In this document: piece after piece, positions 27,187 to 36,035 of the stretch | How the letters are laid out: each line of letters starts with the position of its first letter | Position numbering within the stretch: position 1 is the first letter of the stretch | Source: Iodobacter sp. | GTDB lineage: Bacteria > Pseudomonadota > Gammaproteobacteria > Burkholderiales > Chitinibacteraceae | DNA length: 36,928 bases | Assembly: GCF_025352645.1 (NCBI RefSeq) | Contig: NZ_JANXSO010000081.1 | Coordinates: 1 to 36,928, forward strand | Direction of reading: 5' to 3' | Notes under the pieces: generated by a model | The model's input: the letters and a program-made list of their open reading frames with translations, nothing else | Told to the model about the DNA's origin: nothing | Database searches by the model: none | Made by a program: the position numbers and the translations under genes

Positions 27187-30100
27187 ATGGCCGAGCCTAT
27201 TAATACTCCCATCCCTCCTCAGCAGCATGCTGCGCATGATCGTCTGCGCGAAATTCCTTACAACTACACCTCGTTTTCCGATCGTGAGATTGTGATTCGC
27301 TTGCTGGGGGATGATGCCTGGCAGGTGCTCGATGATTTGCGTCAACAGCGTAAAACCGGCCGCTCCGCGCGGATGCTGTTTGAAGTATTGGGGGATATTT
27401 GGGTTGTAAAGCGTAACCCTTATTTGCAAGACGATTTACTCGATAACCCCAAGCGCTTAAATATGTTGGCCGAGGCCATGCACCACCGTGTGCATGAGAT
27501 CGAAAAACGCCGTCAGGAAAACGCACAGGTTGGCTTGTTGATAGACCGTACTCGCGAGGCGGTAGAGTGCTTTGAGCGCGAGTTTATTGATGTGGCCCTG
27601 CTGCGCCGTAAAGTGCTTAAAAAAATGGGCCGCATTACCCGTAATGACAATATCTGCTTTGATGGCTTGGCGCGGGTTAGCCATGTAACCGATGCCACTG
27701 ACTGGCGCGTGGAATACCCTTTTGTGGTGCTGGCCCCCGATACCGAAGAAGAAATGGCTCCCTTGGTGGCGGCCTGTATTGAGCTTGGCCTGACGATTAT
27801 CCCACGTGGCGGTGGCACGGGTTACACCGGTGGTGCTGTGCCGCTGACGGCGCTTTCTGCTGTGATTAACACAGAAAAACTCGACCAGCATAATGGGGTT
27901 GAATACCGTGAATTGCCGGGTGTTTCTGGCAAAGTGGCCACTATTCAGTGCGGCGCAGGGGTGGTGACACGCCGCGTCATGGAAACCGCTGAGGCGGCTG
28001 GGCTAGCATTTGCAGTTGATCCAACCTCGGCCGATGCATCCTGTATTGGCGGCAATGTGGCGATGAATGCCGGGGGTAAAAAAGCCGTGCTGTGGGGCAC
28101 GGCGCTGGATAATCTGGTGAGCTGGAAGATGGTTGATCCAGACGGCAACTGGATGTTTATCGAGCGCATGGATCACAATATGGGCAAGATCCATGATGCC
28201 AAGCAAGCCACTTTTCGCATCCGCAAGTTTAAGCCAGATGGCAAAACGCTGATCAGCGATGAAAACTTAGTAATCCCTGGCAATAAGTTCCGTAAAGAGG
28301 GGCTAGGCAAGGATGTAACGGATAAATTCCTCTCTGGCCTGCCCGGTATTCAGAAAGAAGGCACCGATGGGCTGATTACCAGCGCTCGTTTTGTGCTGCA
28401 CCGTATGCCAGCGCATGTGCGCACCGTTTGCCTGGAGTTTTTTGGTGAAGTCAGCCGCGCTGTGCCATCGATTGTAGAAATCAAAGATTATCTAGACGCG
28501 CATCCAAGCGTGCAGCTGGCAGGGCTGGAGCATTTAGACTGGCGCTATGTGCGTGCCGTGGGCTATGCCACCAAGGCCAAGGGCCATGGTCGGCCTAAAA
28601 TGGTACTGGTAGCCGATTTAGTCTCAGACGATGAAAACGCCGTGGGTGAGGCTGCCAGCCATGTGGTGAAGTTGGCGAATGTGCGCGGTGGTGAAGGCTT
28701 TGTGGCGGTAACGCCCGAGGCAAGAAAGAAATTCTGGCTGGATCGCGCCCGCACGGCGGCGATTGCGCGCCATACCAATGCCTTTAAAGTGAATGAAGAC
28801 GTGGTGATCCCATTGCCACGGCTGGGCGAGTATTCCGACGCGATTGAGCGGATTAATATTGAGCTGTCTTTAAACAGTAAGCTGGATCTGCTGGATAAGC
28901 TGCAAGACTTCTTTGCCCACGGCCGCCTGCCGGTGGATGGGGGGGATGCACCGGTGAGTGCTGAAGAGTTTATTGGTGATCGGCGTGAAAGCGCACTGGC
29001 GCTGATTGAGAAATCACGCTTGCACTGGCAGTGGATTTTTGATCACCTAGATGATTCCTTCGAGCTATACCGCGCCACATTCCCGACTATGCCTTTAGAA
29101 AAAGAACTGATTGGTGATGATATCCCACAAAGCGTGTTCCTTGCGCTGCGTGATTTTGTGCTGCGGGTGAGCTGGAAGCGCGAGTTGCTGGGCGAGCTGG
29201 AAACGCTGTTCTCTGGCCGCACGGATAAATCGATTATGGAGCTGGTGTTTGCCATTCAGCAAAAAGTGCTGAAAGGCCGCACTTGGGTTGCGCTGCATAT
29301 GCACGCTGGCGACGGCAATGTGCACACCAATATCCCCGTGAATTCTGACGACTATGAAATGCTGCAACGCGCGCATAAAGCCGTGGCGCGGATTATGGGC
29401 GTGGCCAGAAACCTGAATGGGGTGATCTCGGGCGAGCACGGCATCGGCATTACCAAGTACGAATTTTTAAGTCGCGAAGAGCTGCTGCCCTTTGAGGCCT
29501 ATAAAAAGCGGGTAGACCCGAACGGCCACTTTAATAAGGGCAAGCTGATGCTGGGGGCGGATTTATCCAACGCCTATACGCCATCATTTAGCCTGTTGGG
29601 CGCTGAATCACTGATCTTAGAAGCCTCCGACATCGGCGAGATCAGCAATAGTGTAAAAGACTGTCTGCGTTGCGGTAAATGTAAGCCAGTGTGCAGTACA
29701 CACGTGCCACGGGCTAATTTGCTCTACAGCCCACGCAATAAGATTCTGGCAACGGGCTTACTCACTGAAGCGTTTTTATACGAAGAGCAAACGCGCCGTG
29801 GCGTGTCGCTCAAGCATTTTGATGAGCTAGGAGACGTGGCCGATCATTGCACGGTCTGCCATCGCTGCTTAAATCCTTGCCCGGTTAATATCGACTTTGG
29901 CGATGTTTCGGTGGCTATGCGTAATTTCTTGCGCAAAGAAGGCAAAAAGAAATTTAACCCGATTACCGCACTGGGTATGGGTTTCTTAACCATCAAAGAC
30001 CCCGCCACCATCAAGCTGATCCGCAAGGTAACCATTGAGTGGGGCTATAAAGGCCAGCGGCTGGCGCACGTTATTGCCAAACGGATGGGCCTGCTCAAGC

Positions 30101-31092
30101 CTGCCTTGAAAGCGCCGCCTGCCACGCTGGGCAAGGCTTCGATTAAAACGCAGGTGATTCATTTTATTAATAAGCCTATGCCAGGTGGCCTGCCTAAAAA
30201 AACCGCCCGCGCCCTCTTGGATGTGGAAGATGCAACAACGGTGCCGGTGATTCGTGATCCGCAAAGGATGAATGAAGAACAGGAATCGGTGTTTTACTTC
30301 CCAGGCTGCGGCTCAGAGCGCTTATTTAGCCAAGTGGGCCTCGCCACCCAAGCCATGCTTTGGCATGTAGGCACCACCACCGTGCTACCGCCAGGCTATC
30401 TGTGCTGTGGCTACCCGCAAACATCGGGGGGAGAGAAAGACAAGGGCGACAAGATCACCATGGATAACCGCGTGTTATTCCACCGCCTTGCCACCACGCT
30501 GAATTATCTTGATATCAAAACGGTGATTGTGTCTTGCGGCACCTGTATGGATCAGCTGCAAAGGTATCAGTTTGAGCTGATCTTCCCCGGCTGCCGTCTC
30601 TTGGATATTCACGAATATCTGCTGGAAAAAGGCGTGAAATTACAAGGCGTAAGCGGTGAGCGTTATATGTACCACGAGCCATGCCACACCCCGATGAAGA
30701 CGTACAAAGGTATCGATGTGGCGAACCAGCTGATGGGCGAAAAAGTGGAGCTGAATGATCGCTGCTGCGGCGAATCAGGCACTTTTGGCGTATCTAAACC
30801 GCAAATCGCCACCCAAGTGCGCTTCAGAAAAGAAGAGGAAATGAAAAAAGGTGCAGACAAATTACGCGCCGAATCTGGCGTGCTGGTGGATAAAGCCGGC
30901 AAACCTGCGCCCGTAAAAATCCTCACCTCCTGCCCATCCTGCCTGCAAGGCTTAAGCCGCTACAACGACGACGCAGGCACCACCGCCGATTACATCGTGG
31001 TAGAAATTGCTAAAACGATACTCGGTGAAAACTGGATGCCAGAATACGTGGCAAAAGCCAGAAATGGCGGGATTGAACGGGTGTTGTTGTAA
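27187..31092 (+). CDS. DUF3683 FAD-linked / Fe-S oxidoreductase (1301 residues)
   Basis: A single chain joining functions usually split over subunits. Residues 1 to about 130 are the DUF3683 region. A PCMH-type FAD-binding domain carries [15 protein letters not shown] near 205-220. An FAD-oxidase C-terminal domain ends near [13 protein letters not shown]. Two 4Fe-4S clusters are bound by Cys826/829/832/836 and Cys888/891/894/898. Two CCG (heterodisulfide-reductase-like) modules follow ([39 protein letters not shown]). The plan resembles glycolate oxidase GlcD plus GlcF, or a D-2-hydroxyacid dehydrogenase fused to its electron-transfer partner, so it probably oxidises a 2-hydroxyacid and passes electrons to the quinone pool. 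Homologues of this size are common in Neisseriales and other betaproteobacteria. The exact substrate is unknown. Monocistronic. Confidence 0.88.
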
Positions 31093-31216: not shown

Positions 31217-31730
31217 ATGTCTCGTTATCGGCGTGCATCAGCAATGGGAGGCAGCTACTTTTTTACGGTAGTTACCTATCAGCGCCGCGCTATTTTATGC
31301 GATGATTTTATTCGCAATGCATTGCACGCTGCGATTGAAGATGTGTGGGTTTTTCGCCCATTTATCATTGATGCATGGGTTTTATTGCCAGATCATTTAC
31401 ATTGTATTTGGACATTACCTAAGGGCGACAGTGATTTTTCTACCCGCTGGATGATGATTAAACGCGATGTATCTGTGGCATGCCGTGATCAATATCATCG
31501 GGCAGATTTAATCAATGATTCTAAGAAAAAACACCGCGAATCAAGCATCTGGCAACGTCGTTTTTGGGAGCACCAAATTCGTGATGAAGAAGATTTTGCT
31601 CAGCATTTCGATTACATTCATTTCAATCCGGTCAAGCATGGGCTTAGTAGCTACGGCCTCAGAATGGCCGTTTTCGACCTTCCATCGCTATGTAGAAAGT
31701 AGTGTTTATTTGCCAGATTGGAATATTTAG
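31217..31730 (+). pseudogene. REP-associated tyrosine transposase (RayT), frameshifted
   Basis: Single-strand Y1/HUH transposase of the IS200-like REP-associated family. The HUH pair is His60-x-His62 in LLPDHLHCIWTLP, and Tyr133 in FDYIHFNPVKHG is the likely nucleophile. The frame opened at 31217 ends at 31702 with the aberrant tail SSYGLRMAVFDLP. In the +1 frame the same bases give LVATASEWPFSTFHRYVESS and on to DWNI, ending at 31730, which is the normal family C-terminus. One extra base near 31646 therefore explains the shift; without it the protein would be about 170 residues, the usual length. A GGAGG site precedes the ATG. REP hairpins flank both sides, as expected of this family. Confidence 0.82.
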
Positions 31731-32607: not shown

Positions 32608-32776
32608 ATTGAGTGCTTCTTGATGGTTGAGTAATTTAATATTTTGGTCAATGAAATAATTCCTAGGGGGTCACCATATTGATTTTTAATTAATCAGTGG
32701 CAATAGGTAGGGGGATTACCATCCAAGAAATTATATCGAGGTATTGCCCGCCAAGCCTTGTATATAAATTAGGGAA

Positions 32777-32907
32777 CCTCGAAAAACCCATCTGATCTCA
32801 TAATACTGCGTTGCGCATTAAAAAAATCTCCTTACATATCAAGCATATGCAGCGTCGATTTTTTTAATACGCGCCTTGTCTTATTTAGAAATATAGGTTT
32901 TTCGAGG
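32777..32907. mobile_element. MITE-like palindromic repeat element
   Basis: Perfect 12-base terminal inverted repeats (CCTCGAAAAACC at 32777-32788 and GGTTTTTCGAGG at 32896-32907) enclose a near-symmetrical sequence. An inner pair ATTAAAAAAATC / GATTTTTTTAAT is placed at almost equal distance from the ends. The whole 131-base unit can fold into one long hairpin and has no coding capacity. The size and architecture fit a non-autonomous miniature element. A clear flanking target duplication is not evident by eye. Confidence 0.65.
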
Positions 32908-33084
32908 CCCCCATTAATACAATCAAATACCTCGATAGGTATGACGGGTTAGCCGAAGGCTCGCTCCGAAACAACTTCCCTTGGGGAATAAGCCCGCTCC
33001 CACAAGTTCATATCAGCTATGCGGGATTTTTAGCCAACTTTTCTAGCTTTCATTCTTACATTCATACCGCAGAACCTTTTGACA

Positions 33085-33149
33085 TGAATTTTTCTCATGC
33101 TATTGCTGAGAAATGATCATTTTCGTTCATGTGCTCATTCAGGTATAAA
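33085..33149 (+). promoter_or_regulatory. Candidate activator-dependent promoter for mesX
   Basis: TGAATTTTTCTCA at 33085-33097 is one base off the MetR-type consensus TGAAN5TTCA. A 12-base palindrome AAATGATCATTT lies at 33111-33122, and TATAAA at 33144-33149 may be a -10 box with no good -35. The arrangement suits a regulator binding upstream of a weak promoter. The actual regulator is a guess. Confidence 0.3.
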
Positions 33150-33328
33150 TTAGACTGCACTCTTAACAATAGACGATATTGTAGTTGATTCTGATTTGTA
33201 TCATTAGGCAAAAATCAGAAAAAACTGGGAATACGATCGTCTGGGATGATCCGAAAAAAATTGGAAAGTCCAAAAAGAGCATGAAATAAATTCAGGTTTT
33301 ATCTCAGAAATTAGGATACCAGATCATA

Positions 33329-34312
33329 ATGAGTAAAGAGTTTACATTTACAATTAAGAGTATTAGTTTCGATGAGAACTATCAGCCCTCAGACAATACG
33401 CGTATCACAACTAATTTTGCGAACTTGGCTAGAGGCGAGAGTCGCCAGGAGAATCTGCGCAATACCTTAATGATGATTAACAATCGTTTTAACGAGTTGG
33501 CAGATTGGGATAACCCTGGAGCCGATCGTTATTCTGTTGAGCTTGAAATCATTTCTGTTGAATTAAACATCGATTCTGAAATCAGCAGCAAGGGTTTACC
33601 TTTAATTGAAATATTGAAAACGAATATTGTTGATCTAAAGACTAAAGAACGTATTGCGGGCATTGTAGGGAATAATTTTTCCTCTTATGTTCGAGATTAT
33701 GATTTTAGCGTATTACTATTGGAACATAATAAGAATCAAGCCAAGTTCAGCACCCCAGAAAACTATGGCGTGCTACACGGAAAACTATTTAAAAGTTTCG
33801 TTAGCTCTAGTACTTACAAAGAAAATTTCAACAAACAACCGGTTATCTGTTTAAGTGTTTCAAGCAGCAGAACCTATCAAAGGACTGAAAATCAGCACCC
33901 TGTATTAGGTGTTGAATACCTGCAAGATGAATATTCCCTGACGGATGAGTATTTCAAGAAAATGGGCTTGCAGGTTCGGTATTTTATGCCTGCAAATACT
34001 GTGGCACCTTTAGCATTTTATTTTTCGGGTGATTTGCTAGCTGATTACACGGATCTGGAGCTTATTGGCACCATCAGTACGATGGGGGCATTCCAAAAGA
34101 TTTATCGACCTGAAATTTATAATGCAAATTCTACAGCAGGAAAATTTTATCAACCTAGTTTGAAGCATCAGGATTATTCATTAACTCGAATTGTTTATGA
34201 TCGAGAAGAACGTAGCCGACTAGCGATTGAGCAAGGAAAGTTTGTTGAAGAGCAGTTCATCAAGCCATATAAAAATATTCTTGAAGAATGGGCTGCTGAT
34301 TGCGTTCTTTAA
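33329..34312 (+). CDS. mesX: DUF1852 protein, MesX-type partner of methionine synthase
   Basis: Protein of 327 residues matching the DUF1852 family by its opening FTFTIKSISFDENYQPSDNTRITTNFANLARGE and by regions such as NTLMMINNRFNELADWDNP and the late MGAFQKIYRPEIYN. It is cytoplasmic, with no signal peptide or membrane segment. Genetic work on the MesD family showed that DUF1852 and oxygen are needed for methionine synthesis by the neighbouring core synthase, which suggests an oxygen-using enzyme that supplies the methyl group. The chemistry has not been settled to my knowledge. AGGA lies 13 bases ahead of the ATG. It is followed 22 bases later by the synthase gene. Composition is more AT-rich than the preceding oxidoreductase. 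Confidence 0.9.
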   Translation: MSKEFTFTIKSISFDENYQPSDNTRITTNFANLARGESRQENLRNTLMMINNRFNELADWDNPGADRYSVELEIISVELNIDSEISSKGLPLIEILKTNIVDLKTKERIAGIVGNNFSSYVRDYDFSVLLLEHNKNQAKFSTPENYGVLHGKLFKSFVSSSTYKENFNKQPVICLSVSSSRTYQRTENQHPVLGVEYLQDEYSLTDEYFKKMGLQVRYFMPANTVAPLAFYFSGDLLADYTDLELIGTISTMGAFQKIYRPEIYNANSTAGKFYQPSLKHQDYSLTRIVYDREERSRLAIEQGKFVEEQFIKPYKNILEEWAADCVL

Positions 34313-34334
34313 TTAAAATACTGGATTATTTGCC

Positions 34335-35363
34335 ATGAAAATACTATTACCGACTTCAACTGCTGGCAGTTTACCGAAACCCTCTTGGCTGGCCGAGCCA
34401 GAGAAACTTTGGTCACCTTGGAAATTGCAAGATCAGGAATTAATTGACGGCAAACAAGATGCTTTACGTTTGTCACTGCAAGAACAATTACACGCTGGTA
34501 TTGATATTGTTAGTGATGGTGAGCAAACGCGCCAACATTTTGTCACTACATTTATTGAGCATCTCAGTGGTGTTGATTTTGAGAAGCGTGAGACCGTTAG
34601 AATTCGTAATCGCTATGATGCAAGCGTACCCACCGTGGTTGGTGCTGTGGCGCGACTAAAACCAGTTTTTGTTGAAGATGCCAAGTTTCTTCGTCAGCAA
34701 ACCAATCAGCCGATTAAATGGGCTTTGCCTGGCCCGATGACGATGATCGATACGCTTTATGATCGCCACTATAAAAGCCGTGAAAAATTGGCTTGGGAAT
34801 TCGCTAAAATTCTTAATCAAGAAGCCCGTGAATTAGAGGCCGCTGGGGTGGATATTATTCAATTTGATGAACCTGCATTTAATGTATTTTTTGATGAGGT
34901 AAATGATTGGGGTATTGCTACTTTAGAAAGAGCAATTGAAGGGCTTCAATGTGAAACTGCTGTACATATTTGCTATGGCTACGGCATTCAAGCCAATACC
35001 GATTGGAAAAAGACTTTGGGTTCAGAGTGGCGCCAATATGAAGCCGCTTTCCCAAAACTGCAAAAATCTAATATTGATATCATCTCACTAGAATGTCAAA
35101 ACTCGCATGTTCCAATGGATCTCATTGAACTCATTCGAGGGAAAAAAGTGATGGTCGGTGCGATTGATGTGGCAAGCCATACCATTGAAACGCCCGAAGA
35201 AGTCGCCGACACTCTAAGAAAAGCACTTCAGTTTGTTGATGCGGATAAGCTCTATCCTTGCACCAACTGCGGTATGGCGCCTTTACCGCGTGAAGTCGCA
35301 AGAGGCAAGCTCAATGCTTTAACTGCTGGCGCGCAAATCGTCCGCAAAGAGCTCTCGGCCTAA
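34335..35363 (+). CDS. mesD: Core (folate-independent) methionine synthase, MesD type
   Basis: Protein of 342 residues corresponding only to the C-terminal catalytic barrel of MetE, about half the usual 750 residues; the N-terminal folate-binding half is absent. The zinc/homocysteine site is conserved: His211 and Cys213 in VHICYGYG, Glu253 in SLECQNSH and Cys312 in CTNCGMAPL. The substrate-binding Asp is in QFDEPAF. The opening PTSTAGSLPKPSWL is the normal start of the domain, and the gene starts cleanly, so it is not a truncated metE. It transfers a methyl group to homocysteine from a donor other than methyl-folate. Adjacency to DUF1852 places it in the MesD group found in aerobic bacteria. 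Its ribosome-binding site is weak, suggesting coupling to mesX. Confidence 0.92.
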   Translation: MKILLPTSTAGSLPKPSWLAEPEKLWSPWKLQDQELIDGKQDALRLSLQEQLHAGIDIVSDGEQTRQHFVTTFIEHLSGVDFEKRETVRIRNRYDASVPTVVGAVARLKPVFVEDAKFLRQQTNQPIKWALPGPMTMIDTLYDRHYKSREKLAWEFAKILNQEARELEAAGVDIIQFDEPAFNVFFDEVNDWGIATLERAIEGLQCETAVHICYGYGIQANTDWKKTLGSEWRQYEAAFPKLQKSNIDIISLECQNSHVPMDLIELIRGKKVMVGAIDVASHTIETPEEVADTLRKALQFVDADKLYPCTNCGMAPLPREVARGKLNALTAGAQIVRKELSA

Positions 35364-35373
35364 AGCATGATGC

Positions 35374-35420
35374 AGGGTTAGCTTTTACGCTTGGATATTT
35401 CTCATCAAGCCGGTAACCCT
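35374..35420. other. Nested hairpin in the mesD-reductase gap
   Basis: AGGGTTA at 35374-35380 pairs with TAACCCT at 35414-35420 around an inner GCTTG / CAAGC stem. There is no following T tract, so it is more likely a processing or stability structure than a full terminator. Confidence 0.35.
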
Positions 35421-35543
35421 CATTTCAAGCAAAAATAAATATCAATTCTTATCAAAACTTATTCAGATGATCTGCCTACGCGCCTCAATAGCATGTGCTA
35501 CCGCTAAATCTAAAGAAGTACGATTCAATTTAGGAACAATATA

Positions 35544-36035
35544 ATGGTTGAAGCAACGGACTTCAGAAGTGCAATGTCGTTGTTAAGCGGTGCGGTTAAT
35601 GTCGTTACCACGACAGGGGCGTCTGGTCGTCATGGATTCACTGCATCTGCGGTTTGTAGTGTCACGGATACACCACCAACATTATTGGTCTGTATGAATA
35701 GAGCGGCAAGGTCACATACTCATTTTATAGAAAATAAAATTTTAACCGTGAATGTTTTAGGTGCACATCATCAGCATATTTCCAGCGTATTTTCATCCAA
35801 ATTGAGTTCAGCAGAGCGCTTTGAATATGGAAATTGGACTGAATTAAAAACGGGAGCGCCTGTTTTAGATGATGCTTTGGTGAGTTTTGATTGTCAGATT
35901 GAGCAAACTCAAGAAGTCGGTACACATACTATTTTTATTTGCCAGATTGTCGCTATTCAACAAAGTCAACATGATCAGGGATTGGTTTATTTTAATCGTG
36001 CTTATCATCATGTGGGTCAGGCCGAAATCGCTTAA
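35544..36035 (+). CDS. Flavin reductase family protein (HpaC/RutF-like)
   Basis: Protein of 163 residues of the NAD(P)H:FMN reductase domain family. Visible are FRSAMSLLSGAVNVVTTTG, GRHGFTASAVCSVTDTPPTLLVCMNR (flavin-binding core), ILTVNVLGAHHQHISSVFS and the C-terminal LVYFNRAYHHVG. These proteins reduce free FMN or FAD for a partner monooxygenase. No monooxygenase gene lies nearby other than the oxygen-requiring MesX/MesD pair, 180 bases upstream on the same strand, so it is a likely supplier of reduced flavin to that system (inference). AGGAA precedes the ATG at good spacing. Confidence 0.9.
   Translation: MVEATDFRSAMSLLSGAVNVVTTTGASGRHGFTASAVCSVTDTPPTLLVCMNRAARSHTHFIENKILTVNVLGAHHQHISSVFSSKLSSAERFEYGNWTELKTGAPVLDDALVSFDCQIEQTQEVGTHTIFICQIVAIQQSQHDQGLVYFNRAYHHVGQAEIA

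Follow-up and report, generated by a model that had tools for sequence, protein, structure and literature searches.

A predicted MesD/MesX methionine synthase locus in Iodobacter, and the flavin reductase and TauE/SafE permease genes that recur beside its relatives

The methionine synthase MesD requires the partner protein MesX and oxygen, and neither methyl-folate nor cobalamin; the two genes are enough by themselves to rescue metE and metF deletions of E. coli (Price et al., 2021, PMC7857596). The systems of Acinetobacter baylyi (ACIAD3523/3524) and Sphingomonas koreensis consist of the same two proteins, and a reductase gene, ACIAD3522, lies nearby in A. baylyi. Price et al. (2021, PMC7857596) drew attention to the flavin reductase close by and predicted that a flavin is the cofactor. 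They left the methyl donor open, and among the papers listed by our literature searches we found no later one identifying it; a 2026 mBio paper describes two strains that appear to escape N2O via MesD (PMC13059711). Here we analyzed a mesX-mesD-flavin reductase locus in a 36,928-nucleotide stretch of Iodobacter sp. DNA (contig NZ_JANXSO010000081.1; "the window" denotes this whole stretch).

The window locus is a further copy of the published system. An earlier sequence-only reading of the window had reported DUF1852, a half-length MetE and a flavin reductase in a row on one strand, and coordinates, strand and order were all correct (Table 1). Its background statement, that a MesD-type synthase needs DUF1852 and oxygen but not methyl-folate or cobalamin, matches Price et al. 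(PMC7857596), where its idea of a reductase and a flavin is also already found. According to the coordinates, 22 bases separate mesX from mesD, and 180 bases separate mesD from the reductase gene. Compared with A. baylyi DSM 14961 (L003), gene order is the same, and MesX, MesD and the reductase are 79, 89 and 75% identical, respectively. We see no difference of kind between the two loci, but the window has a MetR-type site that L003 is without, and the window genome also has metE and metH.

Table 1. Features of the Iodobacter locus and of related mesX loci (L and G numbers are our handles for loci and genomes, g numbers for genera)
Feature	Coordinates or loci	Strand	Remarks
mesX (DUF1852/PF08908)	33329..34312	+	327 amino acids; putative oxygen-dependent methyl-supplying protein
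mesD	34335..35363	+	342 amino acids; predicted core methionine synthase, MetE catalytic half only
Flavin reductase, RutF/HpaC type (PF01613)	35544..36035	+	163 amino acids; putative optional partner
MetR-type operator-like site ATGAATTTTTCTCAT	33084..33098		245 bases before mesX; one letter off consensus ATGAA-N5-TTCAT
Second TGAA-N5-TTCA site TGAAATAAATTCA	33282..33294		47 bases before mesX; conserved among close relatives
Large FAD/Fe-S (flavin adenine dinucleotide/iron-sulfur) protein gene	27187-31092
REP-associated tyrosine transposase gene	31217-31702
146-base element with inverted ends	32770-32915		between GFA-domain gene and mesX
MsuE-type FMN (flavin mononucleotide) reductase	L064:9336-9971		between mesX and mesD; G224, genus g3; PF03358; TIGR03566 231.4 bits
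MsuE-type FMN reductase	L061:9970-10494	same as mesX	just before mesX; g167; PF03358
MsuE-type FMN reductase	L093:7895-8431	same as mesX	just before mesX; g167; PF03358
MsuE-type FMN reductase	L108:7409-7996	same as mesX	just before mesX; g167; PF03358
TauE/SafE permease (PF01925) within 4 kb of mesX	L007, L008, L010, L011, L060, L066-L069, L071, L076-L078, L083, L088, L096, L098, L099, L104, L116

The assignment of MesD is straightforward. The window protein scored 707.9 bits against the NCBIfam model NF006589/PRK09121 "methionine synthase" (cut-off 392), aligned with MetE in its C-terminal half only (TIGR01371 positions 425-753 of 754), without a folate domain, and is close to PDB 3RPD (E-value 6.3e-202). 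The zinc ligands named in the sequence-only reading (His211, Cys213, Glu253 and Cys312) are correct and intact, and Ser12, Glu63 and Asp178 would correspond to the 3RPD homocysteine residues Ser22, Glu73 and Asp188 (the offset of 10 is our own reading). All seven residues were invariant in 64 aligned MesD proteins, except for one Cys312 that reads as Trp in L068. The mesD gene of this locus (genome G372) reads in two pieces, reflecting either a broken gene or an assembly error. From these similarities, the Iodobacter locus is predicted to hold a MesD/MesX methionine synthase, an activity proven in print for homologues.

MesX matched Pfam PF08908 "Putative oxygenase MesX" over its full length (612.9 bits, positions 1-323 of 323); all 71 aligned MesX proteins match this family. 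Beyond PF08908, neither phmmer, nor a 71-sequence profile against the PDB, nor a Pfam search at E-values up to 10 gave a significant match. Two AlphaFold2 models, built with 15 and 16 related sequences, had a mean predicted local distance difference test score (pLDDT) of 60.5 for the window protein and 67.4 for a relative (L112), and Foldseek with both weak models returned no match at E ≤ 0.001. Because of the low pLDDT and the lack of a Foldseek match, no fold is claimed for MesX.

The third gene was assigned with certainty to a class but not to a subfamily, because its product matched PF01613 (136.7 bits) but missed the cut-offs of both nearest equivalogs, RutF (TIGR03615, 222.1 bits, cut-off 254.75) and HpaC (TIGR02296, 163.8 bits, cut-off 205.95).

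We then placed the locus among its relatives. MesX turned up in 9 of the 61 relatives, in 7 out of 369 genomes in a class draw (6 over the cut-off), 44 of 398 genomes of a phylum draw, 3 of 289 genomes in the class of G684 and 209 of 72,556 plasmid records; the draws overlap, and the window's own genome is counted in each. The comparison set contained 68 non-duplicate neighbourhoods, from 52 genomes (window included), 10 named contigs and 6 plasmids. The plasmid loci were hand-picked from the 209 matching records, some of which are chromosome-sized despite the "plasmid" label. Rows left out were L002 and L014 (same contigs as L071 and L070), L013 (cut gene), L111-L113 (short downstream DNA), a sub-cut-off match in G276 and two fragments in G224. 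As controls served the surroundings of metE (28 of 30 over-cut-off genes, without G000 and G378, where metE is beside mesX) and of metH (32 of 50 genomes over the cut-off). Some control stretches are truncated by contig ends (L156, L164, L166, L169, L176 and L181). In all 68 neighbourhoods, mesD was located downstream of mesX on the same strand, with one intervening gene in L064. The order mesX-mesD-reductase repeats in related genomes and is therefore not due to chance.

A PF01613 reductase adjoins mesXD in 15 of the 68 loci (16 if a 92-residue Thioclava fragment is counted). It was present at 9 of 9 mesX loci in the window's own family and adjacent in 3 of the 44 mesX genomes of the phylum draw (G000, G490 and G721). 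Within 4 kb of mesX, PF01613 was found in 11 of 52 mesX genomes against 0.21 expected. Neither a PF01613 nor an MsuE-type reductase was a neighbour of metE (0/28) or metH (0/32) in the same genome set, although control profiles and queries were derived from mesXD neighbours, so that quite different relatives could escape.

The slot behind mesD, in the same orientation, is occupied by PF01613 reductases of several lines, the Thioclava fragment among them. Clade A (the window, its family relatives, Acinetobacter and g328) is 62-100% identical internally, and the Devosia reductase is about 40% identical to it. Clade B (L065, L072 and L075) shows 75-83% identity among its members and 21-31% to clade A. 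Taken together, the excess over expectation, the unrelated clades in one slot and the absence beside metE and metH argue that the co-location is not due to chance. Minimal changes on the MesX tree (6 for a reductase-only label and 4 for a "both" label, counting labelled rows, with unsettled bootstrap support) fit repeated gain or loss of the reductase.

A second, unrelated type of flavin reductase was also recruited. Enzymes of the MsuE type are named for methanesulfonate use. They belong to PF03358, a flavodoxin-like family unrelated to the PF01613 family of the window reductase, and were found just before mesX in three g167 loci and between mesX and mesD in L064 (Table 1). Two of the three g167 copies scored 248.7 and 256.7 bits against the MsuE equivalog TIGR03566 (cut-off 212.5). 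The genome with the inserted copy, G224, also has a decayed second mesX beside the intact one (fragments at G224:C1:2175963-2176446; L021 and L022). With both kinds counted, a flavin reductase is adjacent in 20 of the 68 loci and in 7 of the 44 phylum-draw genomes. The MsuE type was absent from all 60 metE/metH stretches.

On this basis, we consider it probable that the locus encodes a MesD/MesX methionine synthase that works without folate and B12, is controlled by MetR and has as an optional partner a flavin reductase, which most likely feeds reduced FMN to MesX. That MesX uses flavin, that it carries the methyl group and where this group comes from are inferences. In the proposed scheme, MesD would activate homocysteine on zinc, and MesX, using oxygen, would take a methyl group from a common metabolite and hand it to MesD. 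An adjacent reductase would supply the reduced FMN, and housekeeping reductases would serve MesX where none adjoins. Pairings of this kind are known from the two-component FMN-dependent monooxygenases RutA/RutF, HpaB/HpaC and MsuD/MsuE. The likeness lies in the RutF/HpaC- or MsuE-type reductase beside an oxygen-dependent protein; unlike in these systems, MesX matches none of the oxygenase families, and the adjacent reductase is usually missing. The MsuE-type neighbours raised our confidence in the use of flavin somewhat, from slightly better than even to probable.

Several observations weigh against this interpretation. No flavin reductase was found alongside 48 of the 68 mesXD loci, and the 25 Pfam families listed, out of 73 matched by 81 same-strand frames near mesXD in reductase-less loci, included no further flavin reductase family. 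Two of 53 mesX genomes (G636 and G747) had no PF01613 match anywhere, and G753 had a broken copy below the cut-off only. Sequence searches and the two weak models gave no flavin motif, fold or solved relative for MesX. The rescue of E. coli worked without a cognate reductase, and where the S. koreensis screen is described, the methionine-rescued genes that are named include no reductase (PMC7857596). The minority adjacency, together with G636 and G747, is the reason for calling the reductase optional. The sequence-only reading, which had cast the reductase as a possible third part of the synthase and proposed a survey of its co-location with mesXD, was thus borne out as far as a real and repeatedly recruited neighbour from two Pfam families is concerned, but not for an obligate third part, as the PF01613 gene is absent from most loci. 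An adjacent reductase should therefore not serve as a marker of the MesD/MesX system.

The large share of loci without an adjacent reductase would fit the main rival reading, in which MesX is instead a metal-dependent oxygenase of the non-heme iron type, with the reductase at most keeping the metal reduced, or incidental. Among 71 MesX proteins, His150 and His190 are the only invariant histidines and Cys174 the only invariant cysteine, and Glu196 lies close to His190, so that a two-histidine-one-carboxylate site is thinkable. This set is weak evidence, however, because 91 of 327 positions are invariant by our own count, and the MesX models are too poor to tell whether His150, His190, Glu196 and Cys174 meet. 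A metal enzyme would also leave the repeated recruitment of unrelated flavin reductases unexplained, and with the MsuE-type neighbours we lowered our estimate for it from about one in four to a still somewhat less likely alternative.

Alternatively, the reductase could have another task, for example the reductive reactivation of cobalamin for MetH, and share nothing but its regulation with mesXD. The presence of metH above the cut-off in 50 of 52 relatives carrying mesX is compatible with such a role, but we regard it as improbable. On B12, A. baumannii shows a drop of 8.3 log2 units in DUF1852 and of 2.5 in a flavin reductase two locus tags away (2026, PMC12892962); the reductase thus goes down along with mesX, which also counts in favour of the main reading. 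Moreover, neither kind of reductase adjoins metH in the 32 neighbourhoods. TrmFO- or ThyX-like chemistry is the model for a last and very improbable alternative. A reductive MesX that uses reduced flavin to convert methylene-tetrahydrofolate to a methyl group, bypassing MetF, would account for the flavin reductases and for MetF independence, but it conflicts with the oxygen requirement of the activity (PMC7857596), and profile searches found no similarity of MesX to folate- or flavin-binding families.

Flavin reductases are not the only genes recruited beside mesXD. Twenty of the 68 loci encode a TauE/SafE permease (PF01925) no further than 4 kb from mesX, and another copy lies at about 6 kb in L094. 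Among the 52 genomes, 15 cases were seen against 0.45 expected. None of the 60 metE/metH stretches had such a neighbour (Fisher test against 20/68, P = 7e-7; relatedness is ignored in this and our other P-values). A six-frame profile recount gave the same picture (TauE in 21 of 70 stretches, with the distant L094 copy counted, and reductase in 16 of 70, with the fragment from Thioclava). The window itself has no TauE/SafE permease beside mesXD.

The arrangement differs between lineages. In five loci from the window's family, one g328 locus and one Acinetobacter plasmid, the permease gene follows the reductase on the same strand, and two Gilvimarinus loci have it behind mesD, likewise on the same strand. 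Seven Shewanella and g326 loci have it upstream in divergent orientation; in g142, g361, g365 and, at a greater distance, g359, it lies downstream on the opposite strand. The permeases fall into four clades with 31-47% identity between clades, which suggests about four recruitments. On the MesX tree, the TauE-only label needs just 2 changes and may reflect single inheritance of the neighbourhood within one lineage.

Since mesXD, unlike metE and metH in the neighbourhoods compared, recruited permeases of four clades and flavin reductases from two Pfam families, we tentatively propose, as an unlikely extension, that an FMNH2- and oxygen-dependent MesX consumes or sets free a small anion (possibly sulfite or an acid resembling a sulfonate) that the TauE/SafE permease would carry across the membrane. 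Such a reaction would recall flavin-dependent carbon-sulfur bond cleavage and would point to the missing methyl donor. If permease and reductases belong to the reaction, the search for this donor narrows to oxygen- and flavin-linked chemistry with a small anion.

The recurrent and specific TauE/SafE neighbourhood seems to be new, as do the MsuE-type reductases beside or inside mesXD and the co-location counts against the metE/metH control. The word TauE is absent from the main texts of Price et al. (PMC7857596) and Leyn et al. (2014, PMC4239095), the latter main text also being without the word flavin. A literature search for TauE with methionine synthase gave, among the matches listed, none on MesD/MesX by title.

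The regulation of the operon was predicted before. Leyn et al. (2014, PMC4239095) published the MetR consensus ATGAA-N5-TTCAT and counted PF08908-metE2, the same gene pair with a like-patterned site before it, among the well-conserved MetR targets. In an unbiased scan for spaced palindromes in the 300 bases before mesX, ATGA-N7-TCAT ranked first (33 of 46 genus labels versus 1.07 expected) and TGAA-N5-TTCA third (13 genus labels versus 0.75 expected); these genus counts are upper bounds, because named genera stand beside unnamed ones among the labels (g326 and Shewanella, for instance, may be the same genus). By loci, ATGA-N7-TCAT was present in this region in 50 of 71, including the window copy. 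The MetR-type sites agree with the 2014 prediction, and as judged from these motifs, control of the operon by homocysteine via MetR is likely. The function of the second site, TGAAATAAATTCA, is uncertain because it is so near the mesX start codon.

Regulator genes are sometimes found close by. On an Acinetobacter schindleri plasmid (L116), mesX-mesD-reductase-TauE is followed by its own MetR-like regulator, and MetR orthologs were reported absent from the Moraxellaceae, the family of the host (PMC4239095). The best NCBIfam match of this LysR protein is MetR, with 256.8 bits, below the cut-off of 382. A LysR gene resembling it was found near mesXD in eight loci, a count that rests on a survey of longest reading frames, which hid real genes in G+C-rich loci. 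In L065 (G378), mesX is preceded at about 300 bases by a full-length metE, so that the genes form the row metE-mesX-mesD-reductase; the LysR gene of this locus sits beyond metE and may belong to it.

A cobalamin riboswitch controlling the window operon was considered and rejected, as none was detected at the gathering score or by a lax search of the window. A scan of 51 mesX loci (L111, L112, L117, L119, L120 and several more were outside it) found two such riboswitches immediately ahead of mesX in the same orientation, one in Devosia (L005) and one in G773 (L034), and a further one on the opposite strand in Acetobacter L118; one batch of 20 loci had none. G773 (L034, L110), a genome of 1.9 Mb rated 100% complete, carries mesXD and has no metH match and no full metE, so that MesXD may be its only methionine synthase. 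The Iodobacter contig is C57 of a 4.39 Mb genome with a rated completeness of 99.96%. This genome additionally carries a complete metE as well as a metH truncated at the end of a contig, and MesXD is therefore probably not its sole methionine synthase.

The distribution of MesX is patchy. Five window genes flanking the cluster were not found near mesX in any other locus of its genus, and one of the five had partial matches in mesX loci of other genera. Patchy spread and unshared flanking genes fit a mobile mesXD block. A conserved upstream partner, such as the large FAD/Fe-S protein, was rejected, as this gene has no counterpart in other loci of the set, some stretches of which (e.g., L071) are too short to include it. 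Three scans of IMG/VR gave just two mesX contigs (L111 and L112). Each has a mesX-mesD pair in which the start of mesX lies some 2-2.5 kb from a contig end, and they are perhaps host DNA beside a provirus.

Upstream of mesX, the window also contains a REP-associated tyrosine transposase gene and a 146-base element with inverted ends (Table 1). The latter has 30 matches in its own genome (itself counted), 22 of them near full length and with 82-100% identity, and by these features it is classed as a dispersed repeat resembling miniature inverted-repeat transposable elements.

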